From assembly GCA_029263015.1 (NCBI GenBank), contig JAJCYI010000033.1, positions 1-48,221 on the forward strand: DNA of 48,221 nucleotides. The letters run 5' to 3'. The translations under genes were made by a program, and so were the position numbers. Within the stretch, counting starts at the first letter, position 1. Each line of letters starts with the position of its first letter. The notes under the pieces were generated by a model. That model ran no database searches. It saw nothing but the letters and a program-made list of their open reading frames with translations, and was not told the DNA's origin. Origin of the DNA: Saprospiraceae bacterium (GTDB taxonomy: Bacteria; Bacteroidota; Bacteroidia; Chitinophagales; Saprospiraceae). Positions 7,443 through 48,005 of the stretch are shown here, piece by piece.

Positions 7443-7606
7443 TTAAGTAGGTGGAGTTAAATAATCGACACTTTTGACGAGGTTATTTTTTCGTCAGACA
7501 AGGCAAAAAAAAATAGCATAGCCATAGCTACGGTCATTTTTTTTAACATAGTATGGCGGAAAAAGAGGCCGCCAAAAGTGTCGATTATTTGAGTTCACCT
7601 ACTTAA
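7443..7606. repeat. 164-bp palindromic element, copy 1
   Basis: The 34-base arms (7443-7476 and 7573-7606) pair with about three mismatches. The centre contains an A-tract, GCATAGCCATAGCTACGG and a T-tract, that is CATAG facing CTACG. Three other sites in the window share this layout and length. It sits between the 5' end of the nuclease gene and the 3' end of the ATPase gene. Confidence 0.8.
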
Positions 7607-7667
7607 GCGAAGCTACTGCCAATCCATTTAAGAGTTTCTCTTTTAAATTATTATTTGACGACATTAA

Positions 7668-8822
7668 TTATGGCTTTTCATGATGAATGCTAAACCCGAC
7701 AAACTCCTCAAAATTATCCCTGCTAATTACCTCCGTTTCCGAATTCGGATAAGCCTTTAAAAAAGTAGCGGGAATACGGCCTTTTCTTTTAGGGTTCCAT
7801 TTGAATTCAAATGCTGACATTCTTCCGCCGCTTTCTTCGATATAGTCAATTTCCTGTTGGGCCGTTGTCCGCCAAAAATACGCGTTGTAATAATGCTCTG
7901 AATAGGTATTGTTTTTCATCCTTTCCACAATCAGGAAATTTTCCCATAACGCCCCAATATCTTGCCTGGCTTCGACGGTATTAAAATTTTTTATAATGGA
8001 GTTCCTGATTCCATTGTCGTAAAAATAAATCTTCTTGCCTTTCTTTATTTCATTCCGCACATTGCGGCTCAGAGAAGACAACCTGAAAACAACATAGCTT
8101 TTTTCCAGCAGGTCAATATATTTTTCCACTGTGGTTGGGTCTGCGCCAATCAATTCACCTATTTCTGTGTATTTGATTTCATTGCCGACCTGAAGGGCGA
8201 GTGCTTGCAATAGTTTTACGATCAGGGAAGGTTTTTTTACTTGATCCAGCGTCAAGAGGTCCTTGTACATCAAGCCATCGGCCAGGTCATTCAGTATTTT
8301 CTGTGAAATGCCCGTTTCATTCGTTTTGACAACTTCTGGATAATATCCATAAACGAGCCTGTGTTCCAATAAAGATCTTTCTTTCAACAGGCCATGATGA
8401 CTGACCATTTCAATGAAAGAAAGAGGGTAAAGCGGGTATTCAAATTTCCGGCCTACCAATGATTCTTTTGTTTCAGAAGCAATATCGAGTGAGGAAGAGC
8501 CGGTGACAATCAGTTGAATGTTTTTGAAATGGTCGGTTATCAATTTCAGCATTAGCCCAGCGTTGTGCAATCGTTGAGCTTCGTCAATCACCACGATCTG
8601 GTTGTTTGAAAGTATGGCTTCCAATCGGGCAAGGGATACATCTTTCAATTGGTTTCTCGTCTCGGGATCATCGCCAGTTAGCCAGAGGGTGTTTTCACCT
8701 CTCCCATCTACAATTTGTTTGGCCAAAGTTGTTTTTCCGACTTGCCTTGGGCCAATGATAATGATGGCTTTTCCTTTACCTATCCATTCAAGGATTTTAC
8801 CTTCTTGTGTTCTGGAAATCAT
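7668..8822 (-). CDS. AAA_14/DUF4143 family ATPase
   Basis: 384 residues. Walker A GPRQVGKTT (about 24-32), Walker B IVVIDEAQ followed by a sensor GSSSLDI, then a DUF4143 region with a winged-helix-like part (TEIGELIGADPTTVEKYI) and a C-terminal nuclease-fold-like strand pattern (YIEESGGRMSAFEFKW). This is the widespread, strain-variable family often annotated as 'ATP-binding protein, DUF4143'; its biological role is unsettled, with toxin-antitoxin or mobile-element links suggested by distribution rather than proven. Full length and apparently intact. The gene stands alone: a 54-base hairpin separates it from gldB upstream, and a palindromic element lies downstream. Confidence 0.88.
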   Translation of the reverse strand: MISRTQEGKILEWIGKGKAIIIIGPRQVGKTTLAKQIVDGRGENTLWLTGDDPETRNQLKDVSLARLEAILSNNQIVVIDEAQRLHNAGLMLKLITDHFKNIQLIVTGSSSLDIASETKESLVGRKFEYPLYPLSFIEMVSHHGLLKERSLLEHRLVYGYYPEVVKTNETGISQKILNDLADGLMYKDLLTLDQVKKPSLIVKLLQALALQVGNEIKYTEIGELIGADPTTVEKYIDLLEKSYVVFRLSSLSRNVRNEIKKGKKIYFYDNGIRNSIIKNFNTVEARQDIGALWENFLIVERMKNNTYSEHYYNAYFWRTTAQQEIDYIEESGGRMSAFEFKWNPKRKGRIPATFLKAYPNSETEVISRDNFEEFVGFSIHHEKP

Positions 8823-8843
8823 TTTTTAAGCGAAAGTATAATA

Positions 8844-8897
8844 AAAACAGATTCAAATCTAAAATAACTATGATTATTTCGGATTTGAATCTGTTTT
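8844..8897. repeat. Short palindrome between gldB and the ATPase gene
   Basis: AAAACAGATTCAAATC (8844-8859) pairs perfectly with GATTTGAATCTGTTTT (8882-8897). The 22-base loop contains a second self-complementary stretch, AAATAACTATGATTATTT. Its ACTATGATTATTT apex resembles the GCTATGGTTATTTTTT core of the long palindromes, so it may be a shortened relative. It could also act as a terminator for gldB on the minus strand. Confidence 0.65.
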
Positions 8898-8918
8898 AAC
8901 CATGTTTTCCGAAAACCC

Positions 8919-9962
8919 TTATCGCTTCGGTTTATACTTTGAGCCATCCATGATTGCCTGTGCATCCCTCATTCTGATCAATTCTTGCAAAGTCGTTTCT
9001 GGGTTTCTTTTCATATAAGCCTTCACGATCTGCCAGCCGAGCCAATTGGCGGTGCGCCCAGGTGCGCCATCTGGCATGCCGGGGGAGTTGGGACTGTACT
9101 CGATGTACTTTCTGAACTTGCCCATTTCACCAGAATATAACAGGTCTTCAGAGATGAAATAAGCCCAGACGTTTGCCTCATTATTATTTACCCAATCGAC
9201 CTGTCGTTGGGTAAATTCCAATCTGATGCTATCCGGCGTGAGTGGCAATAGTTGGTCGAGCAGGTAAAGTTCTTTGCCATTGTGTACCATGTAGTCCAAC
9301 AGCTTGTTGCCCTTTGCACCTCCCAACAGGTCTTGCACGAGCATCTTCATGGATTTCATGACGATGTGGTCTTTGTTGAACGACCGGGTAAGGTATTGGG
9401 AAAAGTTAGGATTGGCAGGGTTGAAAACTTGGTATGGATATCCTTCTCCAAGGTAAAAGTCGAGGCCGATACCAATCGAATTGTCACCGTATAAAAAGCC
9501 GCCAATAGTGTATTCCGAAACATAAGTCACCACCTCACCAGAGAGAGGCTGGAGGGGGAAATAGTATTTGTAAAATTTGAATGCTTGTCCAAAATCCTTT
9601 TTTATACCAATGAGGTCAGGAAAAACAATTTGGCAGGTATCGTACAGTTTCCGCACATTTGGATGGGCGATAAATCCACGGACATATTCGGCATGGCCTC
9701 CCGGTGCGATCCTTGGATCTTTTGAACCGAGAACCTGGCCAAAGAATATTTCAGCAAATTCGCCATAACGGGTTTCTAATTGTGGCAAACCTTTAGCCAT
9801 GTCATTGGTGTCAAGTGCAAAAAGAGCTTGATCGAAACGCTTCAAATCTACTGGCACCTCAATGCTTGAAACGTCTGGAATATCTTTAACTTCGCCGCTC
9901 TGACAAGCGTAAATGGAAATTAGGGTTAGAAAAAAAAGAAATGAAGTGTTTTTTGCGTTCAT
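8919..9962 (-). CDS. gldB: Gliding motility lipoprotein GldB
   Basis: 347 residues with a lipoprotein signal peptide: hydrophobic stretch and lipobox ending at C20 (SIYAC). The body matches the GldB pattern: VDLKRFDQALF near the N-terminus, a GGFLYGDNSIGIGLDFYLG segment, NGKELYLLDQLLP, WVNNNEANVWAYFIS, and the conserved end PGRTANWLGWQIVKAYM...SKYKP. In Flavobacterium, GldB is needed for gliding and belongs to the gene set around the type IX secretion machinery, though its biochemical role is not known. It sits back to back with a beta-barrel gene. Its presence agrees with the two type IX cargo proteins further on. Confidence 0.88.
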   Translation of the reverse strand: MNAKNTSFLFFLTLISIYACQSGEVKDIPDVSSIEVPVDLKRFDQALFALDTNDMAKGLPQLETRYGEFAEIFFGQVLGSKDPRIAPGGHAEYVRGFIAHPNVRKLYDTCQIVFPDLIGIKKDFGQAFKFYKYYFPLQPLSGEVVTYVSEYTIGGFLYGDNSIGIGLDFYLGEGYPYQVFNPANPNFSQYLTRSFNKDHIVMKSMKMLVQDLLGGAKGNKLLDYMVHNGKELYLLDQLLPLTPDSIRLEFTQRQVDWVNNNEANVWAYFISEDLLYSGEMGKFRKYIEYSPNSPGMPDGAPGRTANWLGWQIVKAYMKRNPETTLQELIRMRDAQAIMDGSKYKPKR

Positions 9963-10054
9963 GCTTTTGCTTGTTAGCCATTAATTGTTGGACGTTAGCT
10001 AAATGCAAAAAAGCCTAAAGCCAACAGCCATTATTCAACCAAAAACAAAAATAG

Positions 10055-10756
10055 ATGAAAAAAATTGTTGCGATAGTTGCATTTTTCATATTGACACAAG
10101 CTGCCATGCTCTCGCAAGGTGGCGATTTGCAATTGGGGTTTCAGATCAGCCCGATGTTCTCTATCATGTCAACAGATGACAACACCATCAATAGCAACGG
10201 GACCAACCTCGGCCTGAAATTGGGGATGAGGGGGGAATTTTATTTTCGTGAGAACTATGCTTTTATTGCTGGGCTGGGCTTCTCATTCAATACAGGTGGT
10301 ACGCTTCGCCACGAAAAATTTAGTGATACTTGGCAGAGATCTGATCTGCCAGCCGGTGTTCTTCGACCATTTTCAGCGAATACAGAATTGAAATATAGCC
10401 TTCAATATGTGGAAATCCCGTTTGGACTAAAGTTCAAAACCAAAGAATTTGGTTATTTCCGCTATTATGCAGAAATGCCTGTGTTTACTTTAGGTTTCAA
10501 ATCGCAGGCACGTGGGGCAATCTCCTCTCCCAATGTGAATAAGGATAAAATAGACATCAAAAAAGAGGTGTTGCCGCTTGCTTTTTCCTGGGGGCTTGGC
10601 GTTGGCGTTGAGTATTCTGTGGGTGAAGGGACGGCTCTTGTTGGTGGTATTTCTTATCAACGACAGTTTACCGATGCGACCAAAAACTACAAACCAGATG
10701 TGGATTCAAAAGCAGTGATCACGAATATTATCATCCGCATAGGAGTGATGTTTTAA
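10055..10756 (+). CDS. Outer membrane beta-barrel protein, PorT-like family
   Basis: 233 residues. Signal peptide MKKIVAIVAFFILTQAAMLSQ with cleavage about residue 21. The rest alternates hydrophobic and polar residues as in an eight-strand barrel, with the family landmark YVEIPFGLKFKT and a last strand ending in F (IIIRIGVMF). This fits the outer-membrane beta-barrel group that includes PorT, an accessory protein of type IX secretion. The divergent gldB neighbour makes a PorT-type role plausible, but many unrelated small barrels share the fold, so I leave the symbol blank. Confidence 0.7.
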   Translation: MKKIVAIVAFFILTQAAMLSQGGDLQLGFQISPMFSIMSTDDNTINSNGTNLGLKLGMRGEFYFRENYAFIAGLGFSFNTGGTLRHEKFSDTWQRSDLPAGVLRPFSANTELKYSLQYVEIPFGLKFKTKEFGYFRYYAEMPVFTLGFKSQARGAISSPNVNKDKIDIKKEVLPLAFSWGLGVGVEYSVGEGTALVGGISYQRQFTDATKNYKPDVDSKAVITNIIIRIGVMF

Positions 10757-10766
10757 AAAACAAAGT

Positions 10767-10863
10767 CGTGAGTTGTTGAGTTATGAGTTATTGAGCTGAA
10801 ACACTTTAACTCGCAACTCGCAACTCGCAACTCGCAACTCAACAGCTTAACAACTTTCAACTC
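10767..10863. repeat. Low-complexity palindrome made of GAGTTGTT / AACTCGCA words
   Basis: The left half has GAGTTGTTGAGTTATGAGTT-like words; the right half has four tandem copies of AACTCGC followed by AACTCAACAGC. The halves are largely reverse complements. It fills the spacer between two plus-strand genes, ending 7 bases before the mscS start. One of about nine such spacers in the window, each with its own word. Confidence 0.65.
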
Positions 10864-10870
10864 CCCCTGC

Positions 10871-11695
10871 ATGGATCAAGATAAGCTTACCAAATACTGG
10901 GATCAATTTATAGATTATTGTGTCACGTTTGCCCCCAAATTATTGATGGCGGGCATTGTCCTTTTTGTGGGGTTCTGGATCGTGAAAAAAGTTGTTACCA
11001 TTTTTCAGATTACACTCGAAAAAGCAAAACTCAGCCAAGAGATAAGAGGGTTTTCCCTTTCGTTTGTAGGGATGACTTTGAAAATTGGCATCGTGCTTTT
11101 TGCGGCGAGTTTTCTTGGATTTCAGATGACCTCCATCGTTGGCATCTTGGCAGCGGCGAGTTTTGCTGTTGCATTTGCTTTGCAGGGAAGTTTGGCCAAT
11201 TTGGCATCGGGCATTCTCATCATGGTTTTCCGGCCTTATAAAATTGGCGATATGGTAGAAGTGAATGGGAAATTTGGAAAGGTTGATGACATTAAAATCT
11301 TCAGCACAGTCATTTCCACTCCAGGATTAAAAACGCTGATTATCCCGAATGGGAAAATAATGGAAAATACCATTATCAATTTCTCAGAAAAAGGGGCGAT
11401 CAGGTTGGAGTTGAATATAACCATGCCTTATGAGGAGAGTTACCCAAAAGTGAAAGAAATCATCCTATCTACCCTAAGATCAATACCCTTGGTTTTGGAC
11501 GATCCTGAGCCACAGGTCGGTATCGAAAACTTTGATAGCCACAATATTATCCTCGCTGTCCGGCCATTTGTTTTGCCCGATAATTATTGGGAAGGGATTT
11601 TTGAAACCCATCAGGAAATAAAAGCAGCGTTCAGTAAAAACAATATTAAAGTGGCTTATTCAGAAGGCGTGGAAATCGGGCCGATCGGGAATTGA
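10871..11695 (+). CDS. mscS: Small-conductance mechanosensitive channel, MscS family
   Basis: 274 residues, the size of E. coli MscS (286). Three predicted helices: about 20-40, 62-80, and the pore-lining TM3 at 88-112, rich in Gly/Ala (GILAAASFAVAFALQGSLANLASGI). Then the beta domain with FRPYKIGDMVEVNGKFGKV and the conserved IPNGKIMENTIINFS, and a C-terminal alpha/beta domain. It opens under membrane tension and releases solutes on hypo-osmotic shock. A remnant that looks like a potassium channel follows, so this spot once held two ion channels. Confidence 0.93.
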   Translation: MDQDKLTKYWDQFIDYCVTFAPKLLMAGIVLFVGFWIVKKVVTIFQITLEKAKLSQEIRGFSLSFVGMTLKIGIVLFAASFLGFQMTSIVGILAAASFAVAFALQGSLANLASGILIMVFRPYKIGDMVEVNGKFGKVDDIKIFSTVISTPGLKTLIIPNGKIMENTIINFSEKGAIRLELNITMPYEESYPKVKEIILSTLRSIPLVLDDPEPQVGIENFDSHNIILAVRPFVLPDNYWEGIFETHQEIKAAFSKNNIKVAYSEGVEIGPIGN

Positions 11696-11760
11696 TTGTT
11701 TAGCTCCAGATACTTAGCTGCTAAAGTGCCCAACCGTTTCCACAATGAAACATCTCTTCC

Positions 11761-11922
11761 ATGGCACTTATTTCAAAGTTCAGAAAAAAATTGAAGGAAG
11801 CCGATGACCTCGGCTTCGGTACTAAAATTACCGGTGAAAGTTATCGCCTGATGGAAAAGAATGGGAAGTACAATGTGCAGACCATTGGAAAACGGCCTGC
11901 ACTAATTTTACCTGATTTCTGA
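11761..11922 (+). pseudogene. N-terminal remnant resembling an inward-rectifier K+ channel
   Basis: A 53-codon frame starting MALISKFRKKLKEADDLGFG and reading on through TKITGESYRLMEKNGKYNVQ resembles the cytoplasmic N-terminus of bacterial Kir-type channels (pattern LGFGT...RLINKDGSFNV before the first helix). It stops just after GKRPALILPDF, before any transmembrane segment, so the pore and C-terminal domain are missing. It lies between mscS and the 3' end of the protease gene, whose stop follows 19 bases later, suggesting a deletion that joined the two. The family match is from memory of the motif and needs a profile search; a genuine small protein is the alternative. Confidence 0.45.
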
Positions 11923-11940
11923 CCCCTGACTCCTATTACT

Positions 11941-13056
11941 TCACCTATGCAAATTTGCCTCGCTACTTCCTTTTAGCATTATTCCTTGTTTTTTCATCGT
12001 AACACCATTGCGGATAATGTCAACTGAAATGGCATCACCAGGACGGAATCGGGCGACTTGTTCCTGTAGTTCAGGAACAGTGTTGGTCTTATGGCCATTC
12101 ACGGCTACAATAACGTCGTTCATTCTTAAGTCAGCGTCTTCTGCACTGCTGCCATCATCCACTCGCCGCACCAAAATGCCAGCAACTTCAGTGAGTTCCA
12201 AATCGGCAGCTATTTCCTCATTGACATCGAGGATGCGAATGCCAAGAAAGGCACGTCTTACTTCACCGTATTCTTTGAGGTCGCGGATTATCTTTTTAAC
12301 CAAGTTGGCGGGGATGGCAAATGAATAACCTTCGTAACCACCTGATTCACTCATAATAGCAGAATTGATCCCAACAAGTTCACCTTTCATGTTGACGAGC
12401 GCACCGCCACTGTTGCCGGGGTTGACCACGGCATCTGTCTGGATGAAACTCTCAATGGCATAAAGCCCTTGCAGGATGTTTATGTTGCGGCCTTTTGCAC
12501 TGACAATGCCTGCGGTCACAGTTGAGGTCAAATTGAAAGGGTTGCCAACGGCAAGTACCCATTGGCCCACGTCCACTTTATCGGAGTCCGCATATCGAAG
12601 AGTCGGCAGGTTTTTTTCGTCAATTTTCAAAAGAGCGAGGTCAGTGGTTGGGTCCTTGCCGATCACTTTAGCCCGGTAGGTATGTTTATTTGACAAAGTC
12701 ACTTCGACCCTGCCCCCACTATCTACTACGTGGTTGTTGGTGATGATATAGCCACTGCGAGAAATGATGACCCCAGAACCACCAGATACAGGTTCATAGC
12801 CATTTAAACTTTTAACGGTGATGTTGACCACGGCCTCCGTCACCAGTTTGGATGTTTCCACAAAATTCTGTGGCACATAATAATCCGTTGATGGTTTTAC
12901 ATTGGTGGGTTCTTGTTTGAGTCCAGTAAAATGAACTTCAGGGGTTGCAGGTTTTTTTTCAGAAGTAATGTCTTTTTTAAGGTAGTTGAAAAGTAATAGC
13001 GTCAAGGCGGTGTTGAAGAGTAAAGTGGCCACAAGGGCCCATCCAGACTTTTTCAT
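11941..13056 (-). CDS. HtrA/DegP-type serine protease with one PDZ domain
   Basis: 371 residues. N-terminal membrane anchor (about 6-24), linker, trypsin-like domain with catalytic triad H109 (NNHVV), D139 (TTDLALL) and S216 (GNSGGAL), then a single PDZ domain (about 268-360; LGIRILDVNEE...VDDGSSAEDADLRMNDVI). One PDZ and an uncleaved anchor resemble DegS, but the sequence is also close to the general DegQ/HtrA group of Bacteroidota. Envelope protein quality control is the likely role. It is transcribed alone, convergent with mscS and its neighbouring remnant and divergent from the acyl-CoA dehydrogenase gene. Confidence 0.9.
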   Translation of the reverse strand: MKKSGWALVATLLFNTALTLLLFNYLKKDITSEKKPATPEVHFTGLKQEPTNVKPSTDYYVPQNFVETSKLVTEAVVNITVKSLNGYEPVSGGSGVIISRSGYIITNNHVVDSGGRVEVTLSNKHTYRAKVIGKDPTTDLALLKIDEKNLPTLRYADSDKVDVGQWVLAVGNPFNLTSTVTAGIVSAKGRNINILQGLYAIESFIQTDAVVNPGNSGGALVNMKGELVGINSAIMSESGGYEGYSFAIPANLVKKIIRDLKEYGEVRRAFLGIRILDVNEEIAADLELTEVAGILVRRVDDGSSAEDADLRMNDVIVAVNGHKTNTVPELQEQVARFRPGDAISVDIIRNGVTMKKQGIMLKGSSEANLHR

Positions 13057-13356
13057 AAGCTTTTTAAATTTACGGGTGATTAAAAATTGGTTCGTTCTGT
13101 TTCCAGTAATGTAAAGTATGGACAGAACAATTGGTTCAATGAAGTATAAATGGGTTTTTCAAGAAAAAATTTGGTCTGACTTAGTTTTAACGAAAGCAAT
13201 AGCGGAATTATCTATAAAGCAGCCAATTTTTTTTGAGAAATGGTGGCTAATGGCAGACGAACGGCATTTAAGTAGTGCTTTGACTAATTTAATTGAGTGT
13301 ATCTTAAGTGTTTGAAAAACATTTGATAGGAGGTGTGCGTTCTCTTTCTGCAAAAA

Positions 13357-13374
13357 TTAGCGAATATTCGCTAA
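13357..13374. promoter_or_regulatory. Operator palindrome 1, TTAGCGAATATTCGCTAA
   Basis: A perfect 18-base palindrome about 105 bases upstream of the acyl-CoA dehydrogenase start. A second near-identical copy lies 66 bases downstream, centre to centre, and the likely -7 region (CCTCTTTG, about 13395-13402) lies between them. Such palindromes are typical of TetR- or FadR-like regulators of fatty acid oxidation; no regulator gene is in the window. Confidence 0.7.
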
Positions 13375-13422
13375 ATAATCAGGCATAAATATTGCCTCTT
13401 TGCAAAAACAGGTTTAAGTTTG

Positions 13423-13440
13423 TCAGCGAATATTCGCTAA
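13423..13440. promoter_or_regulatory. Operator palindrome 2, TCAGCGAATATTCGCTAA
   Basis: Same motif as at 13357-13374 with one changed base in the outer arm; the inner 14 bases AGCGAATATTCGCT are a perfect palindrome. It ends 37 bases before the acyl-CoA dehydrogenase ATG and downstream of the presumed promoter, a position suited to repression. Confidence 0.7.
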
Positions 13441-13477
13441 ATTTTGCAAAAATTAACATTCAATAAATTATTTAGCC

Positions 13478-15380: not shown

Positions 15381-15387
15381 GAGGAAA

Positions 15388-15427
15388 TAAAAAAAGCCTT
15401 GAGGAATTGTTCCTTGAGGCTTTTTTT
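15388..15427 (+). terminator. Intrinsic terminator after the acyl-CoA dehydrogenase gene
   Basis: AAAAAAAGCCT-tg-AGGAA and TTCCT-tg-AGGCTTTTTTT form a stem with one 2-base internal mismatch and a TTG-containing loop, followed by seven Ts. The A-run/T-run ends make it potentially bidirectional. Confidence 0.85.
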
Positions 15428-21984: not shown

Positions 21985-22148
21985 ATAAGTAGTCGAGTTT
22001 AAATATTTTCCAGTTTTTGTCGAGCTTATTTTTCTGAAGTACAAGGCAAAAAAAGTGAACATAGTGGAGCTACGCAAACTTTTTTTAACGCAGTAATTCA
22101 GATAAAGAAGCCGAGAAAAGCGGAAGTTATTTAAACTCGACTACTTAT
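21985..22148. repeat. 164-bp palindromic element, copy 2
   Basis: Arms ATAAGTAGTCGAGTTTAAAT and its exact complement, with further inward pairing (TTCC/GGAA, TTTT/AAAA). The centre is an A-tract, ACATAGTGGAGCTACGC and a T-tract. It lies between the divergent starts of the 431-residue protein gene and the P450 gene, so it cannot be a simple terminator there. Confidence 0.8.
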
Positions 22149-26431: not shown

Positions 26432-27280
26432 ATGAAAAAGATAAAAAGCATCCTCTTCCCTACTGATTTTTCTGAGACCTCACAAAATGCTTTCCGTTAT
26501 GCGCTTTGGTTTGCCGACAAATGCGGAGCAGATATAGACCTCCTGCATGTCGTTTATCCCGAAGCAGAACCAATGGATTTCCCCGTGGTGGTGGCCCGTG
26601 CCACCAAAGATAAAATTGAGACGGCCAAGCAGATGATAAAAATATTTTTTGCATCTGGAATGGCACAGGTAGAGGTTGGGCACCAATTGGAAAAAATGCC
26701 AGATGTGCGGCCCAGTGTCGAGATGGGGGTTGCTTCTGTTGTAATCTCGGAGGTTGCCAAGGAGAAAGGAGCGGACTTGATAATAATGGGTACGCAGGGA
26801 GAGCATAATTCATTTGAGCGAACGCTTGGAAGTGTGTCCACTGCTGTCCTTCGCAAGGTTGCCTGCCAGGTGATCCTAGTTCCTGCGGGTGCAAAATTTA
26901 AAAACATTGATACTGTTGCCTATGCCACCGACCTGGCGGAGGCCGATCCCTATCATATTTGGGAAACGGGTAAACTAATGGACCCGTTCCGCCCAATTAT
27001 CCGAGTTGTTCACGTGAGAAGGGAAGGGGAAAAGAGACCTTTGAAGATGCAGGATATAAAAGCATTCTTTGAAAATCGGACTCCTGCTCTTCAAATAACC
27101 TATCACGACTTTACCAGCGATAACGTTGTTACAGAACTTGATGACTTTGCCAAAGGATGGGATGTTGACTTAATGGTGATGTACAAGCCGCGCCGCAGTT
27201 TTTTTGAGCGGATATTCCACCGCAGCGTTACGAAAAAAGAGACGTTTCACACCCATGTCCCTTTATTGATATTGAAGTAA
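26432..27280 (+). CDS. Universal stress protein, two tandem UspA domains
   Basis: 282 residues: first Usp domain about 1-148 with the start MKKIKSILFPTDFSETS and the ATP-binding signature GTQGEHNSFERTLGSVS, second domain about 150-282, more diverged, lacking a full G-x-x-G-x-H signature. Cytoplasmic, likely ATP-binding through domain 1 and dimerising within one chain. Tandem Usp proteins of this size are common in Bacteroidota. Its stop codon directly abuts a palindromic element. Confidence 0.9.
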   Translation: MKKIKSILFPTDFSETSQNAFRYALWFADKCGADIDLLHVVYPEAEPMDFPVVVARATKDKIETAKQMIKIFFASGMAQVEVGHQLEKMPDVRPSVEMGVASVVISEVAKEKGADLIIMGTQGEHNSFERTLGSVSTAVLRKVACQVILVPAGAKFKNIDTVAYATDLAEADPYHIWETGKLMDPFRPIIRVVHVRREGEKRPLKMQDIKAFFENRTPALQITYHDFTSDNVVTELDDFAKGWDVDLMVMYKPRRSFFERIFHRSVTKKETFHTHVPLLILK

Positions 27281-27440
27281 GGGAGTAGGCAATAAATAAG
27301 CTACCCAATTTTGCGAAGTTATTTTTCCTTGTAAAAGTGCTTGAAAAACTAAGAATAGTGGGGCTATGGTTATTTTTTCAAGTGTTTTTAGAAGGAAAAA
27401 GAACGAGCCCAAATGGGTAGTTTATTGGTTGCCTACTCCC
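27281..27440. repeat. 160-bp palindromic element, copy 3
   Basis: Arms GGGAGTAGGCAATAAATAAG... and ...TTTATTGGTTGCCTACTCCC. The centre is AAAAACTAAGAATAGTGGGGCTATGGTTATTTTTT, here given in parts: an A-tract, AATAGTGGGGCTATGG and a T-tract. The right inner segment AGAAGGAAAAAGAACGAGCC is shared with copies at 35.5 kb and 41.1 kb. It begins at the base after the usp stop codon. Confidence 0.8.
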
Positions 27441-27494
27441 TAAAGCCTTCGGCCATTGGCATTTTGTGAGCCTTTCAAACAGCGGTGTAAATTT

Positions 27495-35396: not shown

Positions 35397-35437
35397 TTGA
35401 ATATTATTGATTGCTAATTGTTGATTGTTGTTTTTTC

Positions 35438-35599
35438 AGGAATGAGGCAACAATAAAATGTACATGATTGGATTAGTCATTTTTTTCTTTTAAGGAACTT
35501 TAAAAATCTGTGCATAGCCTATCTACGGACTTATTTTTAAGGTTTCTTAGAAGGAAAAAGGGCAAGCCAAGACGTATATTTTATTGTTGCCTCATTTCT
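35438..35599. repeat. 162-bp palindromic element, copy 4, inside the atp operon
   Basis: Arms of 26 bases beginning AGGAATGAGGCAACAATAAA pair at 24 of 26 positions. The centre is TTTAAAAATCTGTGCATAGCC and TATCTACGGACTTATTTTTAA. The right inner segment AGAAGGAAAAAGGGCAAGCC matches copies at 27.3 and 41.1 kb. It separates atpE from atpF. Confidence 0.8.
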
Positions 35600-35603
35600 A
35601 AGA

Positions 35604-40273: not shown

Positions 40274-40334
40274 TTTAGTAAGGTTGAAGATGGTTGAGTT
40301 GGTTTATATTCCTCCTTTATAAAGAAAAGATAAA

Positions 40335-40886: not shown

Positions 40887-40888
40887 CG

Positions 40889-41125: not shown

Positions 41126-41129
41126 TGGT

Positions 41130-41186
41130 TCAGTCGAGAAGGAAAAAGAACAAGCCAGAATGAGGGACTCATTCACTCCTTACTCC
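41130..41186. repeat. Half copy of the palindromic element family
   Basis: GAGAAGGAAAAAGAACAAGCC, written in parts as GAGAAGGAAAAAG and AACAAGCC, matches the right inner segment of copies 3 and 4, followed by an ACTCCTTACTCC end like copy 3. The left half and the CATAG core are missing. A small stem, GAATGAG-gga-CTCATTC, is inside. It overlaps the stop codon of the radical SAM gene. Confidence 0.6.
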
Positions 41187-42205
41187 GCCCATACCTTGCA
41201 CCCTTCCGTGCAATTGGTGCAGATGTCGATCTTGTCCCGTCCGTTCAATAGGGTTTTCCGGAAGCGGGAATATTTCTCTCCCTGCCAAATTTCCCGAAAT
41301 GAAATATCTTTCAAGTCGCCCAGTTGATGAGTAGCATCTTTGTCAAAACAGCATGGGACAACCAGCCCGTCCCAGGTGACGACGCAGGCATGCCAGAGTT
41401 TCCAACAATGGTTGAGCAGCTTGTTTTTAACCTGCCAAGTACCGTCCTGTTTTTCTTCGTAACGGGCATATTTCCGGATGGTCGGAATTAGTTCATTGCC
41501 ATGTTCGTAATCATAGACCTGGGCGGTTTTTAGTTTCACTTCGTTAATGCCAATTTCTTTTGCAAGGCGGTATATTTCGGGGATTTGATGCTCGTTTGGA
41601 CGCACCACAAGGAATTGGAAAATGATATGCGGCGTTTTTGATTTTAATTTCTTTTTCCATTTCACCACATTTTTTGCTCCCTGTAAAACAACTTCCAGCT
41701 TTCCTTCTTTGCGGTAGCTCTCATAAGTTTCTTGGGTGGTGCCGTCCACCGAAACTATAAGCCGGTCGAGGCCAGATTCAATGGTTTTACGTGCATTCTC
41801 ATTGTTCAAAAAATGACCGTTGGTGGAGGTGATGGTGTAAATGCCCTTGCTCCTCGCATATTTCACCATGTCCAAAAAATGAGGGTTGATATATGGTTCG
41901 CCCTGGAAATAAAAAATCAAGTAGAGCAGATCCCTGCAGGTTTCATCAATGATGCCTTTAAAAAAATCCGATTTTAAGTTTCCGGTTGGCCGGGTGAAAG
42001 CACGGAGGCCGCTTGGACACTCTGGGCAGCGCAAGTTGCAGGCCGTGGTGGGTTCAATTGAAATGGTCATCGGCAAGCCCCATTGTATCGGTTTCCCGAT
42101 CCAATTGGTAAGGCGGTAGGAAGAAAACAGTTTCGCCACGTTCCAAAGCCGGCGAGGGGTCAGCTTGGAGAAGAAGTTCGATATGTCGTGATGGTGAAAT
42201 TTCAC
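41180..42205 (-). CDS. Radical SAM/SPASM domain protein
   Basis: 341 residues from GTG 42205; the frame extends to ATG 42253, but those 16 codons lie inside a low-complexity palindrome and encode only Phe/Leu, so GTG is preferred. Radical SAM cluster motif CNLRCPEC (C-x3-C-x2-C), glycine-rich YFQGEPYINP, and a C-terminal SPASM-type set (CVVTWDGLVVPCCFD ... CTNCTEGC) for one or two auxiliary clusters. Enzymes of this class modify peptides or small molecules. No precursor peptide gene is evident nearby. Two glycosyltransferase genes lie upstream on the same strand, a neighbourhood known for rSAM-associated transferases. Confidence 0.85.
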   Translation of the reverse strand: MKFHHHDISNFFSKLTPRRLWNVAKLFSSYRLTNWIGKPIQWGLPMTISIEPTTACNLRCPECPSGLRAFTRPTGNLKSDFFKGIIDETCRDLLYLIFYFQGEPYINPHFLDMVKYARSKGIYTITSTNGHFLNNENARKTIESGLDRLIVSVDGTTQETYESYRKEGKLEVVLQGAKNVVKWKKKLKSKTPHIIFQFLVVRPNEHQIPEIYRLAKEIGINEVKLKTAQVYDYEHGNELIPTIRKYARYEEKQDGTWQVKNKLLNHCWKLWHACVVTWDGLVVPCCFDKDATHQLGDLKDISFREIWQGEKYSRFRKTLLNGRDKIDICTNCTEGCKVWAE

Positions 42206-42312
42206 AAGTAAAAAGTAAAAGGGCAAAAGTAAAAAGGTAAAAGTAAAAAACATGGATGCACAACTTTTTACTTTTTACTTTTGCCCTTTTACTTTTTACT
42301 TATCAAAACAAC
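42206..42312. repeat. Low-complexity palindrome between divergent genes
   Basis: AAGTAAAAGGGCAAAAGTAA words face TTTACTTTTGCCCTTTTACT, a nearly perfect mirror around ACATGGATGCACA. It lies between a minus-strand and a plus-strand start, so it is not there as a terminator. Both reading frames that run out of it encode Phe/Leu-rich stretches that can be mistaken for signal peptides. Confidence 0.7.
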
Positions 42313-42789
42313 ATGATTTCAGAAAAAACAATAGACCAGGTCATTGGCCAATTTGAAGCAGAAGAAGCTCATTATGAGCAGGCGATCCTCGAATTCGGCG
42401 AAAGCCAGCCAGCTGTTTTATCGTTCCTGCTTTCCGACCAGGAAGGGGCACTGGCAGATGATGAGCGGGATTTTATGCTTTATCTCGCCGTTGTTATTTG
42501 GCAGTCAGTTGAACATGTTGGACCATCGCCCGAAATGATTTCAGCTCCAGAAATCAACGAGACGGAAGAGGCCAATTGGGCGGTCATGGACAAAGCCAAA
42601 GGCCGCACTTTCCGCGACCGGCTGGATGTTTTTTTTAAAAATACACCGCAGGAGGATTTACTTGCATTTATCGAAGATTCATTGACCCTGGAAGAAATCG
42701 ATGACGGCAATGAAGGTATTAAAATTACCAAAGAAGGAGTGGAACCTATGTTTGTCGTTTTGAAAACGGTGGTGGACGTTTTGAGTTAA
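42313..42789 (+). CDS. Conserved hypothetical protein
   Basis: 158 residues from ATG 42313 (MISEKTIDQVIGQFEAEEAHY); upstream codons to 42256 belong to the palindrome. Acidic, helical, no membrane segment. Landmarks: a FGESQPAVLSFLLSDQ segment, DDERDFMLYLAVVIWQSVE and ALSLEE-like LAFIEDSLTLEEID. I do not recognise a named family, but the composition looks like a real cytoplasmic protein. It is alone on its strand between the radical SAM and DUF2064 genes. Confidence 0.7.
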   Translation: MISEKTIDQVIGQFEAEEAHYEQAILEFGESQPAVLSFLLSDQEGALADDERDFMLYLAVVIWQSVEHVGPSPEMISAPEINETEEANWAVMDKAKGRTFRDRLDVFFKNTPQEDLLAFIEDSLTLEEIDDGNEGIKITKEGVEPMFVVLKTVVDVLS

Positions 42790-42822
42790 CTAAAAGTAAA
42801 AAGTAAAAAGTAAAAAGTTGGC
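42790..42822. repeat. Tandem AAAAAGT words
   Basis: Three tandem copies of AGTAAAA between the hypothetical gene's stop and the DUF2064 gene's stop. The same word builds the palindrome at 42206-42312, 480 bases away, so the word spread locally. Confidence 0.5.
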
Positions 42823-43413
42823 TCAAATTTCCCAACCATATTTAATCCAGTCTTCTTCGTAATCTATATCGGAAAGGGTAGGGAGCAGGAAATATGTTTT
42901 ATTTAATTCATTAATATTTTCAATTGTTTTTTTTGCAACCGTATTTGTGCTCCATTCTATATTTTCAAAAATATGCGGTGTTGGGGTTTTCATTCCAATT
43001 AAATAATAACCTCCGTCGTGGGTTGGCCCCAAAACTAAATCGTGGGTATTTAATTTTTTAAAACCTTCCTGGATTATTTTTGCGGATATATTCGCAATGT
43101 CACCACCAATTAAAATTACTTTATGGTATGGCGGCATCGTGTCAATAAATGCATTGGACATGCGCTCGCCAAGGTCTTCCCCCCGTTGTGTTTTTTTGAT
43201 AAATAAATTATCTTTCCACCTGCCATTTATTTCAATAAAAGAACTATAAAAAACGCATCTATCACAATTTACATTCAATGCTTCTTGTTGGGTTCGTTCC
43301 AATAATGCACGATATATTTTTACAGCCATGTCATTGCCCACGGTCGCAGCCAAACGGGTTTTTATTTTTCCCGGTTGGATGTTTTTAATAAAAACAATTA
43401 AGAGTTCTTTCAT
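42823..43413 (-). CDS. DUF2064 family glycosyltransferase-like protein
   Basis: 196 residues, nucleotide-diphospho-sugar transferase fold of the type TIGR04282 (rSAM/selenodomain-associated transferase 1). Landmarks: FIKNIQPGKIKTRLAATVG (nucleotide-binding start), QRGEDLGERMSNAF, VILIGGDIANIS and LGPTHDGGYYLIGM. The family is known mostly through its co-occurrence with radical SAM genes; here one lies about 600 bases downstream on the same strand. The acceptor is unknown. Confidence 0.85.
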   Translation of the reverse strand: MKELLIVFIKNIQPGKIKTRLAATVGNDMAVKIYRALLERTQQEALNVNCDRCVFYSSFIEINGRWKDNLFIKKTQRGEDLGERMSNAFIDTMPPYHKVILIGGDIANISAKIIQEGFKKLNTHDLVLGPTHDGGYYLIGMKTPTPHIFENIEWSTNTVAKKTIENINELNKTYFLLPTLSDIDYEEDWIKYGWEI

Positions 43414-43466
43414 TCTTTTATTTTGGTGTTTTCCAAAGGTTAAGTAAGTCGTTATTTACTGAGCAC

Positions 43467-44177
43467 TTAGTTGAATAAATTGTATTTTAAGATACAATAA
43501 ATCGCCCTTAGCCCGTCTTTCCAATTTATTTTTTTACCTTCTGCATAGGTTCGGCCATAATAAGAAATGCCCACTTCATAAATACGGACTTCAGGAATGC
43601 GGGAAATTTTTGCTGTCACTTCAGGCTCGAAACCAAAACGGTTTTCCTGCAGGTCAAGCCCCTGGATAATTTCACGCCGGAAAAGTTTATAGCAGGTTTC
43701 CATATCCGTCAGGTTGAGGTTGGTGAAAGCATTGGACAGCATGGTGAGAAACTTGTTGCCTAAAGAATGCCAAAAGAATAAAATCCGGTGTGGGTTGCCA
43801 CCCATAAATCGGCTTCCATAAACAACGTCGGCTACACCCTCCAACATTGGTTTAAGCAACAAATTGTACTCCCTTGGGTCATATTCCAGATCGGCATCCT
43901 GGATGATGATAAAATTGCCCGTCGCTTGCTTGATACCAGTGTGCAAGGCTGCTCCTTTGCCTTTATTGGTTTCGTGTTTGTGGTAGTTGATGTGGGTAGC
44001 TGGATTGTTTTTCTGATAGGATAAGATGGCAGCTTCTGTTTCGTCAGTGGAGCAATCGTTGATTATAATGACTTCTTTTTCGAGGTTCTGCTTCAATTCC
44101 ACCGCTTGCACTCTGTCAAGGATGAGGTGGATGGTCCGAGCCTCGTTAAAGGCAGGTATGATGATCGACAATTTCAT
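43467..44177 (-). CDS. Glycosyltransferase family 2 (polyprenyl-phosphate type)
   Basis: 236 residues, GT-A fold. Start [42 protein letters not shown], DxD motif as QDADLEYDP, and [11 protein letters not shown]: the pattern of DPM1-like transferases that move a sugar to polyprenyl phosphate. No C-terminal membrane helices, so it is peripheral. Together with the DUF2064 and radical SAM genes it forms a loose same-strand cluster. Confidence 0.9.
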
Positions 44178-44241
44178 AGTCGTTTGTTGAATTTGAGGCG
44201 CAAAGAAATAAAATTATTCGTCTATTGTCTAAAATCTATTA

Positions 44242-45669
44242 TCATAATTCTCCCACCTTTTCCAAAAGCCATTTTTTGGCGGCAACAGCTTTGCAATTTT
44301 CAATTTGTTTTTTTACTTTTTCTATGGTTGTTTTATCATAAGGCGCAATTGAGGATAGTTTTTTGGTAAACCGCAAAGTGTTCATGCATTGTTGTTTCAT
44401 TTCTTTTGAGATTAATCGGTTGCGCCTTAAATAAATGCGGAATGAATCGGTCAGGGAATCGAGGGCGAGGTACTCGTCCAGTTCGAAATAAGTACGGGTC
44501 AATAATAATTTACTGCCAATTGCATAAACAATGGTTTGGTATTCAACTTCCCTTAATTGTTCGATTACTTTTTCGAATTCTTTTTTATGAAAGTATAGAT
44601 TTGCTAAATTATAGTTAACTGCATTTTCTTGATCGGACTTTGGTAAATGTTGACTATAATTTTGAATAAAATTTTCCACCCAATTAAATTCTTTTACATG
44701 CAAAGAAATAGTGATGATATTTTTATAATGATGTGGGTTTAATTCCCCGTTTTCAAAAATTATTTTTTGATCGAGTCCTGTTTTATATAAAGAAAAAAGT
44801 TCGAGATAGTATTCTGATCTTCCGTTGTTTATTTTAGTATCGATGCAGTAATTCATCAGGTGGATGAAAAGTGTTTGCAATTCTTTTTTTTGAAAGCAAT
44901 GCCCATCGTTTTCCAATAGGCTTTTTAATTGCTGGAAAATATGTTCTTCGTCCCGTTTCAATATCATTTGAGCAACCAGGTACCAGGCCTTCACGGCTGG
45001 TTCATGGATGTAAATCGAACTAGGCAAATAATCCATCAGGCCAGGCAACATGTGGATGGCCGCTTCTCCTGACACCATGTTTTGATAGCCAAGGTTGTCG
45101 CAATAGTGTTCCAGTTTTTTTGAGAAATAATAACAGTCCAGGTGATAATCCGCTTTTTCCAAAAAGTCGAATGAAGCGGTCTTGTTAGCGTTGTGCTCCA
45201 AATGCTCTCTTTGGCGGCGCTGCAAAGCATGGGAAAGGAAATGGTAGTCCGCATCTTTGTACCCTGTTTTTCCGAGGTCAGCATTCATCTGCCTGACCAC
45301 TCCGTTAAAATGTTTTTCGAGACGGGTATCGGCAAGGGCATGAAGCAAAAAAACCTGACTGGTGGACGGGTTGGATTTATACTTTTGATGGGACATGAAA
45401 TCCGTGGCAAGTCGTAACAAATCAGAGCAGAGTCGCCGGAAACGGGTGTCGTTATATGACTTGCTTGGAAACATTTTTTTCCAAATCTCCAACTTGCCAA
45501 TCGTATTGCCTGTCTTTGTGGCTGGCGTGAGTTCGTTTTTGATTGTATCAAAAAGCAGCACAAGCTCTTGGTTCTCGTTGAAGAAAGGGGAATTGACGTA
45601 TTTCCCGAAATGAGACAGCTCGTTTGACGGGAATGTTTGGAGCAAGGTGAAAAGTTTAATGTTCTTCAT
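44242..45669 (-). CDS. Bacteroidota-specific helical repeat protein
   Basis: 475 residues from ATG 45669 (MKNIKLFTLLQTFPSNEL); the frame extends five codons further. Start pattern KLFTLLQTF...HFGKYVNSPFFNEN...LEIWKKMFP...YNDTRFRRLCSDLLRLATDFM recurs in many paralogous Bacteroidota proteins that I know only as hypothetical. The remainder is all-alpha with TPR-like helical pairs (NLANLYFHKKEFEKVIEQLREVE). Cytoplasmic, no catalytic motif. The role is unknown; a scaffold is the simplest reading. Confidence 0.72.
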   Translation of the reverse strand: MKNIKLFTLLQTFPSNELSHFGKYVNSPFFNENQELVLLFDTIKNELTPATKTGNTIGKLEIWKKMFPSKSYNDTRFRRLCSDLLRLATDFMSHQKYKSNPSTSQVFLLHALADTRLEKHFNGVVRQMNADLGKTGYKDADYHFLSHALQRRQREHLEHNANKTASFDFLEKADYHLDCYYFSKKLEHYCDNLGYQNMVSGEAAIHMLPGLMDYLPSSIYIHEPAVKAWYLVAQMILKRDEEHIFQQLKSLLENDGHCFQKKELQTLFIHLMNYCIDTKINNGRSEYYLELFSLYKTGLDQKIIFENGELNPHHYKNIITISLHVKEFNWVENFIQNYSQHLPKSDQENAVNYNLANLYFHKKEFEKVIEQLREVEYQTIVYAIGSKLLLTRTYFELDEYLALDSLTDSFRIYLRRNRLISKEMKQQCMNTLRFTKKLSSIAPYDKTTIEKVKKQIENCKAVAAKKWLLEKVGEL

Positions 45670-45914
45670 GTATATTTGCCGCAATAAGATTCAAAATTAA
45701 TTTATTTTAAAAACTGATAATCAATTAGTTATGATTGATATGGTATAATAAGATTTGGTACAAATCTAAACTTTTGTCTTCTTCTTTTAATTGCTAAAAC
45801 CACACTTTTGTAATAGGAATAGCAGTTTTAATTGAGATCTATTTATGTTAAACTAGCCCCCATTTACCGATAAACCACTGTAAACCAGTATTTTCCCATC
45901 TCAAACTTGACGCC
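45670..45914. other. Intergenic region before the T9SS type A gene
   Basis: 245 bases, AT-rich, between divergent starts. I see no gene, no clear TAnnTTTG box and no strong palindrome. Presumably both promoters. Confidence 0.5.
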
Positions 45915-47762
45915 ATGACGAATATGAGAAAGACGCTACTTTCGGGATTGTTTTCATTGACCTTGCTTCTGGTTGGGGGGCATCTTGCTGCCCAATGCAG
46001 TTTTGAAGGCCAGGTAATCGACCTTTCCAGCAGCTCCACTTGTAGCAAAGTCATCCTTTCCTATGATAATTTTGAAATTTTGGCACCCTTGGACGCATCT
46101 GCTCTAAGCACCATTGATATTGGGGCTGAAATCCAATTTTCATATACATTGGATACGCTGGGCCAAGCATGTGCCGCAGGAATACCGATACTGCTAACTT
46201 GCGTGGAAGTGACCAACCAGCCTGCGCCTGATTGCATTGCAGATTTTGTTTTCTTTGCAGATTTTGACAATAATTACCCCGTGGCATCTTTCCAGCCTCT
46301 GGCGGTGGATGCTAACCTCCAATATACCTGGGACTTTGGTGATGGGGAAATTGCCTATGAACCGATCGTGACCCATGCCTTTTCCGGACAAGGTTTTTAT
46401 GAAGTTTGCCTGACGCTTTCAGGGGGTAATTGTGGGCAAACAGTAAACTGCCAAACGGTTGATTTGAATGAGTGCCATGCTGCATTCCATACGGAGGGCA
46501 ACGACGGGACTGTCAATTTTTTCAACACTTCTTCTGGAAATTATACCGATTGGGAATGGAGCTTGGGCAACGGGGCGGAGCTACAAAATACTTTTTTGGA
46601 AACTTTTGATTACGGTGAAATAAACATCTACACCGTTTGCCTTACTGTATGGAATAACAATGGTTGCAGTTCCAAATATTGTGATTATGTGTTCACTGGG
46701 TCGGGCGATGTATGCGAATTCGCGACTTGTGTTTATCCTGGTGATACCAATTGGGACGGATCGGCCAATGTGTATGACCTTTTGCCGATCGGCGTTGGGC
46801 ATGGAACGGAAGGCCCTCCCAGGCAGCTCGATGATGTAGATTTGGCGCTTGACTGGTCGCCGCAATATGCACCTGATTGGGGGCTTGAAACCATTAATGG
46901 CAATGATTACAAACATCTTGACTGTAATGGTGATGGAAATGTCGATGGAGAGGATGTTGAAGCCATTGAAGTGAATTACGCTGCCCCTTCAAATATTTTT
47001 ATGGTGCAAGCAAATGGAGCACCTACTGTTTGGCTGGATTTTGAGTGGGACACTATTTTAATTGATGACAATACGCCCGCTACCATTGAATTGGAGGCAG
47101 ACCTAATGATTGGAACCCCTGATCTGCCGATGGAAAACCTCCGCGGTTTTGCGCTCCAGATGAACTATCCGGAAGACAAAGTTGTGAGCGGTGGGATTGA
47201 GGTGGACTACAGCGACAATTCTTTTTTTGGCAATTCGAATCACATCCTTTGGTTACAAAAAGACAGGTATGACGATGGTGGGGAATTTGACCTTGGGTTT
47301 ACCAAAAAGAGTGCAGCTGCAGAAGGATTTGGAAAAATTGCCACTGTGAAATTCATCGTTATCAGCGATGTATTAGCCCGTGACCAATCAGCTACCCAAT
47401 TCACCGTTTCACTTGAAGATGTGGTGGCCGTCAACCCTGACGGGGCTATGCTGACGATTGGCGAATTGTTGCCATCTACTGTTTATGTAGTGAACAAAAT
47501 GACAACCGCTACCAACAACGAGTGGCTGAACAGTCAAGTAACTGTTTTCCCGAACCCAGCCACCGAAAAAGCAATTGTACAAATCAATGACCTAAAGGCT
47601 GAACAATTGGAAGTGTTCAATGCTCTGGGGCAGAAAGTACAAGCTGAAACGGGCAGCTCGGATTACTTTGAACTGAATACTGCTGATTGGGAGAAAGGCA
47701 TTTATTTAATTAAAATACAAACCGATCAAGGGATGGCGAATAAGCGCTTGGTCGTACAATAA
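45915..47762 (+). CDS. Secreted PKD, dockerin-like and cohesin-like protein with T9SS type A signal
   Basis: 615 residues. Signal peptide about 1-27 (LLSGLFSLTLLLVGGHLAAQ). PKD domain with YTWDFGDGE (about 135-145) and a second PKD-like module (DWEWSLGNGAELQ). Then two calcium-loop sequences, GDTNWDGSANVYDLLPIG and DCNGDGNVDGEDVEAI, as in type I dockerins, directly followed by a cohesin-like domain (LRGFALQMNYPED ... GFGKIATVKFIV). The C-terminus is a type A sorting domain (VFPNPATEKAIVQI ... LEVFNALGQKV ... GIYLIKIQTDQGMANKRLVV). Exported by type IX secretion and anchored or released at the surface. Confidence 0.88.
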   Translation: MTNMRKTLLSGLFSLTLLLVGGHLAAQCSFEGQVIDLSSSSTCSKVILSYDNFEILAPLDASALSTIDIGAEIQFSYTLDTLGQACAAGIPILLTCVEVTNQPAPDCIADFVFFADFDNNYPVASFQPLAVDANLQYTWDFGDGEIAYEPIVTHAFSGQGFYEVCLTLSGGNCGQTVNCQTVDLNECHAAFHTEGNDGTVNFFNTSSGNYTDWEWSLGNGAELQNTFLETFDYGEINIYTVCLTVWNNNGCSSKYCDYVFTGSGDVCEFATCVYPGDTNWDGSANVYDLLPIGVGHGTEGPPRQLDDVDLALDWSPQYAPDWGLETINGNDYKHLDCNGDGNVDGEDVEAIEVNYAAPSNIFMVQANGAPTVWLDFEWDTILIDDNTPATIELEADLMIGTPDLPMENLRGFALQMNYPEDKVVSGGIEVDYSDNSFFGNSNHILWLQKDRYDDGGEFDLGFTKKSAAAEGFGKIATVKFIVISDVLARDQSATQFTVSLEDVVAVNPDGAMLTIGELLPSTVYVVNKMTTATNNEWLNSQVTVFPNPATEKAIVQINDLKAEQLEVFNALGQKVQAETGSSDYFELNTADWEKGIYLIKIQTDQGMANKRLVVQ

Positions 47763-47788
47763 TCATAAAGAGTTTTCCCGAGCAAAGT

Positions 47789-47823
47789 AAAAGTCCAGTT
47801 GGCGATATGCCAGCTGGACTTTT
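47789..47823 (+). terminator. Terminator after the T9SS type A gene
   Basis: AAAAGTCCAGTTGGC and GCCAGCTGGACTTTT form a stem with one mismatch around a 5-base loop; TTTTGCTTT follows. The A/T tips allow use from both sides. Confidence 0.8.
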
Positions 47824-47828
47824 GCTTT

Positions 47829-48005
47829 GGAACAGTTCAAAAATAAATTACCACTCTTGACTGTTTCTTTTTCTCTCTAACTTTGTTGAAAATACCTGCC
47901 TGCCGGCAGGCAGGCTCGCCATAACCCTGCTATGTCTGCGTTTTTCGCCTTGTTAGAGAAAAAAATAATCCACCCAAGAACGTCAATTTATTTATGCACT
48001 GTTCC
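47829..48005. repeat. Palindromic element, copy 5, reversed and carrying an insertion
   Basis: Outer arms GGAACAGT / ACTGTTCC with AAATAAATT / AATTTATTT; inner arms TCTCTAAC / GTTAGAGA. On the reverse strand the core reads ACAAGGCGAAAAACGCAG then ACATAGCAGGGTTATGG, as in copies 1-4. It differs by a perfect 20-base palindrome at 47895-47914; without this it would be 157 bp, close to the other copies. Confidence 0.7.
47895..47914. repeat. 20-base palindrome CCTGCCTGCCGGCAGGCAGG
   Basis: A perfect palindrome inserted in copy 5 of the long element. A one-mismatch version is at 2874-2893, also inside a larger palindrome. GC content far above the surroundings. Confidence 0.8.

Follow-up and report, generated by a model that had tools for sequence, protein, structure and literature searches.

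Based on our analysis of a 48,221-nucleotide stretch of DNA from a Saprospiraceae bacterium (the window, which is contig 33 of a 6.95-Mb draft genome), we propose that the palindromes of about 160 bp found there in five full copies are miniature inverted-repeat transposable elements (MITEs), that two of their subfamilies carry the terminal repeats of insertion sequences (ISs), and that an inner hairpin of about 100 nt is kept by selection on one folded strand; we give this reading a probability of about 0.68. The elements are MITEs in that they are short, non-coding, present in many copies and flanked by target duplications, with IS-matched ends for two subfamilies. Each has 2-3 flanking bases, termini of about 30 bp that vary by subfamily, a stem, an asymmetric internal loop (the box, with AAGGC on its left side and, facing it on the right, AACGNAG or a variant), a short inner stem and, at the apex, a hairpin with the stem CATAGC..GCTACG. 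A first reading of the window by a model that saw only its letters (the sequence-only reading) had noticed the conserved core of these palindromes, set them against classical MITEs and offered that the core inserts into pre-existing hairpins. The contrast proved wrong and the insertion found no support: the elements are MITEs of which different copies carry different ends, and the arms travel with the core, the subfamilies (F1, F1b, F2 and F3 among them) being whole elements of about 160 bp with differing flanks, 93-99% identical within a subfamily, and the ends of two of them being IS repeats.

The same reading had held that the arms differ between copies yet compensate within each copy, and the covariation proved strong. 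In an alignment of 73 diverse sequences (A2; selected on length from 94 references, with some few of normal length dropped as well), both sides of a pair have changed in 486 cells against 168 after shuffling, and 90.9% of cells pair against 67.8% when shuffled and 39.7-53.0% when slid; none of 500 shuffles reached either figure. Both-side changes occur in 24 of 28 pairs, with a covariation score of 0.625, where shuffling gives 0.195 and sliding no more than 0.19, the structure having been derived from the same alignment that was tested; that related sequences can exceed shuffles in such a test detracts from these figures. A further alignment, made with the profile model R1 (built from 19 sequences, the five full window copies among them), has double changes in 29 of 51 pairs. 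Pairing runs over 158-171 bp in 56 of 101 pattern-selected elements having 110-bp flanks, and the remainder are truncated or over-extended pairings. Identity of the terminal repeats can explain the compensation in the outermost part; the inner part is not so explained. The inner 99-nt hairpin also occurs without palindromic outer arms, at L159 and L211 (both from Sulfurimonas metagenome-assembled genomes, MAGs), L244 and L258.

The kinds of pairs in the stems indicate which form is selected. In a cruciform both strands fold, a G-T pair on one is an A-C on the other, and neither is preferred. Since a cruciform treats the strands alike, an excess of G-U over A-C pairs argues that one strand folds, as RNA or as single-stranded DNA (ssDNA). 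Pairs were counted in 194 of 230 items (36 had no located core with both boxes), of which 95 were left after near-duplicates were removed; orientation came from core and box letters only, and G-U and A-C counted alike as mismatches. In the outer stems of these 95 there are 3572 Watson-Crick, 336 G-U, 76 A-C, 387 purine-purine and 100 pyrimidine-pyrimidine pairs. Element by element, 81 are richer in G-U, 3 are richer in A-C and 11 are tied, and the pattern-oriented set alone favors G-U in 47 and A-C in 1 of 57. With distance from the box, G-U:A-C runs from 107:7 nearest through 31:20, 53:13, 71:8 and 66:22 to 8:6 in the outermost 12 bp, which are 95% Watson-Crick and serve as an internal control. 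Within F1 and F2, a C>T or A>G change has produced G-U at 32 sites, and a G>A or T>C change has produced A-C at 16, so that the bias is not the product of a single mutation type. Selection therefore appears to act on one folded strand, RNA or ssDNA, as far as pair asymmetry can tell; the sequence-only reading was right that a folded form may be selected, and its double-stranded cruciform gives way to a single strand.

The counts are not uniformly favorable to this view. The bias is uneven, the bin 10-20 bases from the box (31:20) being not significant, and crude whole-hairpin counts that include box and core are weaker (320:179, 120:86 and 413:375). The short stem inside the box first gave 52:52, in an alignment that ran through unpaired bases beside the core; the recount on A2 with its consensus structure is 199 G-U to 23 A-C (128:18, 32:1 and 39:4 in three helices), with 65 of 73 sequences favoring G-U and 1 A-C, a count that leans toward G-U because the structure was predicted by a program accepting such pairs. 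As to the level at which the fold would act, RNA is our reading of the bias, and G-T pairs in ssDNA could yield the same one.

The flanks show how the elements insert. In a count of flanking triplets over 86 distinct copies of 87 (18 F2, 14 other GG-ended, 49 GT-started and 5 other), F2 has identical triplets in 17 of 18 (12 TAA, 5 TTA; in the 18th the left flank is missing) against a shuffle mean of 9.4, and the other GG-ended copies have them in 8 of 14 against 2.8. Read by eye, GG-ended copies of other genomes have them in 8 of 11 (P = 0.005). GG-ended copies thus carry a 3-bp TNA duplication, and 40 of the 49 GT-started copies lie in TAA...TTA, that is, with TA on each side; the remaining 5 copies, of another end type, have no identical triplets. 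Window copy 47829 is scored here as a miss because of the model boundaries, though its flanks read TTT/TTT. The comparison of loci for empty sites, which the sequence-only reading had recommended, succeeded for one nested copy: at L063 an F1 copy interrupts an F2 palindrome whose uninterrupted relative at L129 has just one TA. Around the insert, one flank reads TA and the other AA, which would be a TA duplication with one change. Of additional note, the F1 copy (L063, 1501-1662) sits in the apical region of the F2 copy, and at L318 (about 1389-1813) an ISAzo13-like fragment lies beside half of an L094-type copy, again in the apical region; the apex may thus be a favored target.

Partner ISs can be named for two subfamilies in the same genome. 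Five genomes were searched for PF13358 and PF01609, and the ends of the matches were then checked. A 1.3-kb IS with TTA on both sides (L283) has the ends GGGAGCAGGTAAAAAATAACCTACCCA and encodes a protein matching PF07592 (ISAzo13; 4.6e-60), its NCBIfam score of 189.6 bits being under the cut-off of 200; the ends of L283 and L314 match those of F2 at 93.3% over 30 bp and 90.6% over 32 bp. An IS630-like element (L277; PF13358, 102 bits) starts with TAAGTAGATTGGTTAAAAGAAACGACACTTTT, its left end being read by eye, and ends with the inverse of TAAGTAGGTTGCGTTAAACAAACGACACTTTT, close to the F1b end TAAGTAGGTGGAGTTAAATAATCGACACTTTT, the identity to F1b at the right end being 87.5% over 32 bp. F1b, with the end TAAGTAG and a TA target, thus goes with an IS630-like IS, and F2, with GG ends, with an ISAzo13-like one. 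Similar ISs of both kinds occur in genome G016 (L282/L310 and L276), and of five cyanobacterial plasmid loci that carry related transposases, three likewise have a TTA-GGG start and an AAATA block. In blastn, the elements match the partner ISs of F2 and F1b over the terminal 30-32 bp only. The profile model R2, which was built from relatives of the five window copies and from none of these five, detects the core nowhere in L276-L305 apart from a separate copy in L301.

A simpler explanation would be that these are ordinary MITEs and nothing more: inverted duplications of IS ends, whose covariation records the inheritance of two matching halves while the folding goes unselected. The match of the outer ends of F2 and F1b to IS ends is what it expects, and two further findings speak for it and against our own reading. 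In L306-L315 and L330-L334, three weak R1 matches were obtained (13.0-14.1 bits, E 0.48-0.87); those in L307 and L315 lie at IS ends, which could mean that the core came from an IS end. The same origin could be read from L309 (G000:C18, 1150-1330), where a half palindrome lies upstream of an ISAzo13-like transposase gene and is 81.5% identical over 65 bp to L131:1971; it may equally be a remnant or a fusion. Our own reading is further weakened by a patchy distribution of the enzymes: in a survey of 60 genomes, PF07592 occurs in 7, all among the 28 with R1 matches, and 21 genomes with R1 matches lack it, while G010, G028 and G037 (at least 48, 39 and at least 48 R1 matches, counts that may include both strands of a copy and are not exact copy numbers) have no PF07592 and no PF13358 match. 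Plasmid searches with two terminal sequences, for the CTAG-ended family and for a CTAGAAGCC end, returned 1 and 31 records, none usable, and so found no IS (no search was made with the TATACTTCG end). The enzyme of many families is thus absent or yet to be named, and a good IS link exists for two subfamilies only. Among recurrent neighbor proteins (the 25 clusters listed, from 1075 open reading frames, ORFs) no transposase cluster was noticed by eye. What ordinary MITEs do not predict is the preference for G-U over A-C in 81 elements against 3, and a conserved asymmetric box; nor do they fit partner ISs that match only over the terminal 30-32 bp and in which R2 finds no core. We therefore consider this explanation unlikely, though not negligible.

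We suggest the following mechanism for MITEs with a selected inner fold. IS630-like and ISAzo13-like transposases would move F1b and F2, respectively, in trans, and the other subfamilies would use related enzymes. Between the ends lies the hairpin module of about 100 nt, found with several end types and in several phyla, and selection would act on the single-stranded folded form of one strand during propagation. An RNA transcript is slightly more likely as that form than a lagging-strand or transferred ssDNA hairpin, and the fold would more likely serve the element, through stability or by presenting its paired ends, than a neighboring gene. The function of the folded strand is in each case our inference. 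A role for the host, with regulatory RNAs, terminators or mRNA-processing hairpins spread by transposition, would suit the intergenic position of the elements, since of the 217 with clear orientation 11 reach into ORFs of 100 aa or longer. Yet among the clearly oriented elements with neighbors on both sides (n = 149), 42 are co-directional and 32 antisense (P = 0.30 for this pair), and 44 are divergent and 31 convergent, so that there is no clear orientation preference; this makes it more likely that the strand-specific fold serves the element. Near-identical, presumably young copies also speak against a host role, which we judge improbable.

The design extends well beyond this genome. R1 has matches in 28 of the 60 genomes and R2 in 16 of a sample of 296 taken across the phylum, the home genome being counted in both. 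The sequence-only reading had suggested searching the genome and its relatives with a model, and many copies were indeed found. A search of named genomes with the core pattern gave at least 116 stretches, and the following holds among the 80 listed: Bacteroidota are represented by Phaeodactylibacter, other Saprospirales, Lewinella, Chitinophagales, Fulvivirga, Arenibacter and Algibacter; Gammaproteobacteria, Methylococcales among them, by Methylomonas, Methyloprofundus, Bathymodiolus methanotroph symbionts and one Lysobacterales MAG; and Sulfurimonas, Deltaproteobacteria and Myxococcota by MAGs only. Because they include isolate and symbiont records, the Bacteroidota and Gammaproteobacteria are fairly safe; binning errors are possible for Lysobacterales and one Sulfurimonas record, which share metagenome labels with Methylomonas bins. 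By eye, folds of 33 pattern-matched places have the same design in most cases, not in all. It weakens our case that this set was picked by the core pattern, so that its core letters are not independent evidence. Taken further, the data hint that a mobile, folded, non-coding module crosses phyla as MITE cargo, fitted with the ends of at least two transposase families, and that the module itself is the conserved selfish unit; we put this forward tentatively, at somewhat under even odds. To our knowledge, how bacterial hairpin MITEs spread and why their long stems are kept is an open question. Here, partner ISs can be named for two subfamilies in the same genome and target duplications can be read, while the G-U to A-C count, which indicates that one strand folds, makes the choice between RNA and ssDNA directly testable. 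Since the core recurs across phyla, the inside of a MITE can apparently be under selection and open to exchange, and need not be filler.

In the home genome, R1 (threshold E<=1, where both strands of one copy can each count as a match) has at least 150 matches; at least 7 repeat a listed copy on its opposite strand, which leaves about 143 distinct places among the matches listed, some of them pieces at contig ends. With such numbers and near-identical subfamilies, the palindromes are neither unrelated chance structures nor single copies, two of the outcomes that the sequence-only reading had named as fatal. For F1b, 86 end matches were counted, of which at least 48 fall some 170 bases or less from where their contig stops, and this crowding suggests that recent copies probably broke the assembly. 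Scaled from five full copies in 48 kb, a genome would hold several hundred, as an estimate only. At L129 (2651-2834; G000:C13), two outer ends of different end types stand unpaired, a possible end-exchange recombinant.

The window copies are listed in Table 1. The four full copies, the reversed copy with an insert of about 20 bp and the truncated copy all lie where the sequence-only reading had put them, with exact ends that were off by 0-3 bp. R1 scores the five full copies at 97.6 to 173.8 bits, R2 matches all five (E 2e-18 to 9e-5), and inverted repeats were detected at each; folds were computed for copies 1 and 2. The flanking consensus proposed earlier (GAAGGAAAAAG..AGCC) is not common to all subfamilies: the left box AAGGC is present in copies 1, 2 and 5, opposite AACATAG, AACGCAG and AACAAAG, respectively, and copies 3 and 4 are without the box. 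These two have motif scores of -3.5 and 8.0, whereas the scores of copies 1, 2 and 5 range from 20.6 to 46.0. The left TAA of copy 3 doubles as the stop codon of the ORF at 26432-27280. The remnant gave no R1 match at E<=0.01 and no R2 match at E<=10.

Table 1. Palindromic elements of the window, with flanking bases and model matches
Feature	Position	Strand	Flanks	Model matches	Remarks
Copy 1, subfamily F1b (AGTAGGTGGAGTT...)	7446..7603	+ (canonical strand +)	TA at 7444-7445 and 7604-7605	R1 156.9 bits; R2 E 1.9e-17	Subfamily ends match IS630-like L277
Copy 2, subfamily F1 (AGTAGTCGAG...)	21988..22145	+	TA at 21986-21987 and 22146-22147	R1 173.8 bits; R2 E 2.2e-18	
Copy 3, subfamily F2 (GGGAGTAGGC...)	27281..27440	+	TAA at 27278-27280 and 27441-27443	R1 99 bits; R2 E 6.6e-5	Subfamily ends match ISAzo13-like L283/L314
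Copy 4 (GGAATGAGG...)	35439..35598	+	TCA at 35436-35438 and TAA at 35599-35601	R1 98 bits; R2 E 8.6e-5	Imperfect duplication
Copy 5, subfamily F3 (GGAACAG...)	47829..48005	-	TTT at 47826-47828 and 48006-48008	R1 97.6 bits; R2 E 3.8e-12	CCTGCCTGCCGGCAGGCAGG palindrome inserted
Right-arm remnant, core missing	41130..41186	.			Read by eye

Other repeats lie close by. The 20-bp palindrome inserted in copy 5 (CCTGCCTGCCGGCAGGCAGG; window about 47900-47920) recurs at L025, L030, L031 and L129, with different insertion points in several copies. A second MITE (ACTGGACTTTTGACG...CGTCAAAAGTCCAGT) occupies 48013-48221, up to the contig end, and is found again nested in an F1 copy at L056 (about 1910-2123); a 1.65-kb stretch at L305, whose ends are similar and which matches DDE_Tnp_1 weakly (20.9 bits, under the cut-off), is its possible autonomous partner. 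At 42195-42307 there is a AAAGTAAAAAG-type inverted repeat (45 nt, 91% complementary), and a weak R1 match at 42226-42295 (E 0.005) was taken for chance. A different inverted-repeat element (CAGGGTGAACGAAAAGTC...) has inserted near the end of an F1 copy at L043 (about 2095-2262) and shows a short target duplication.

Among known palindromes, REP or BIME-like repeats moved by RAYT (TnpA-REP) deserve mention, as the sequence-only reading had pointed to RAYT or IS200-type transposases. Such Y1 genes are present (eight Y1_Tnp matches in the genome, six above the curated cut-off), and many REPs begin with GTAG, as F1 does. In the eight Y1 loci, R2 finds none of these elements, and by eye the most stable folds in several of them are other short palindromes; GG-ended families do not begin with GTAG, and 3-bp duplications are also against a RAYT origin. 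The search for a matching transposase thus led to IS630-like and ISAzo13-like partners instead, and we see next to no chance that RAYT moves the elements. Integron attC sites have a variable folded stem with unpaired bases that choose the strand, and attachment sites for a strand-selective site-specific recombinase would, by this analogy, account for a variable stem, a conserved internal loop, the lengths of 158-171 bp in 56 of 101 elements and the favored strand. Our elements differ in their target duplications and in the IS-type ends of two subfamilies, and in the single cluster that was read (L129, where five copies fall within 5.8 kb) there is no cassette array: the genes there are ordinary and on both strands, and a cassette-array reading of it was dropped. 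Attachment sites would accordingly be a very improbable explanation.

At gathering score, Rfam has no match in the window and a single match in 11 other loci, a Flavo-1 RNA (RF01705) at L206 (2860-3007, 44 bits), away from the palindrome. At E<=5, copy 2 gives 7 matches (5 microRNA families, a snoRNA and isrF), all far below gathering scores. Among the titles and abstract openings listed in our searches of Creative Commons-licensed PubMed Central literature, there was no description of the element. ISAzo13 ISs resemble F2 in their terminal repeats and TNA duplication, and differ in that our palindromes have no transposase and that the core is not detected in the ISs except as weak or partial matches. 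Similar in kind are bacterial MITEs related to IS630, for example RUP (IS630-Spn1), which the excerpt of PMC2229807 describes as short, non-coding and multicopy, with the ends of an IS630-type IS and a TA target. Our elements share these features; unlike RUP, their core is also found on ISAzo13-type ends and in other phyla and has a strand-specific fold, a distinction drawn by description and not by sequence. ERIC (IRU, RU-1), given in excerpts of PMC2229807 and PMC2759123 as a long intergenic hairpin with a TA target, has the same general design, with CAAG and AACGCAG at similar spacing by eye, but is 127 bp long with another apical stem. It has no R1 or R2 match and a motif score of z 0.9-1.1 against shuffles, so that its kinship is not supported. 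The same score is z 7.2, 9.9 and 4.5 on window copies 1, 2 and 5, and only 2.3 on copy 4 and -0.3 on copy 3, so that a diverged relative could be missed. YPAL (RU-2), in excerpts of the same two sources a hairpin MITE of about 167-168 bp, is similar in length; its kinship is not supported either, its motif score being at background (z 0.0), as was that of RU-3. The kind of element, a MITE, is already known, and what is unusual is the combination of a conserved strand-selective core with the ends of two transposase families and a range over several phyla.

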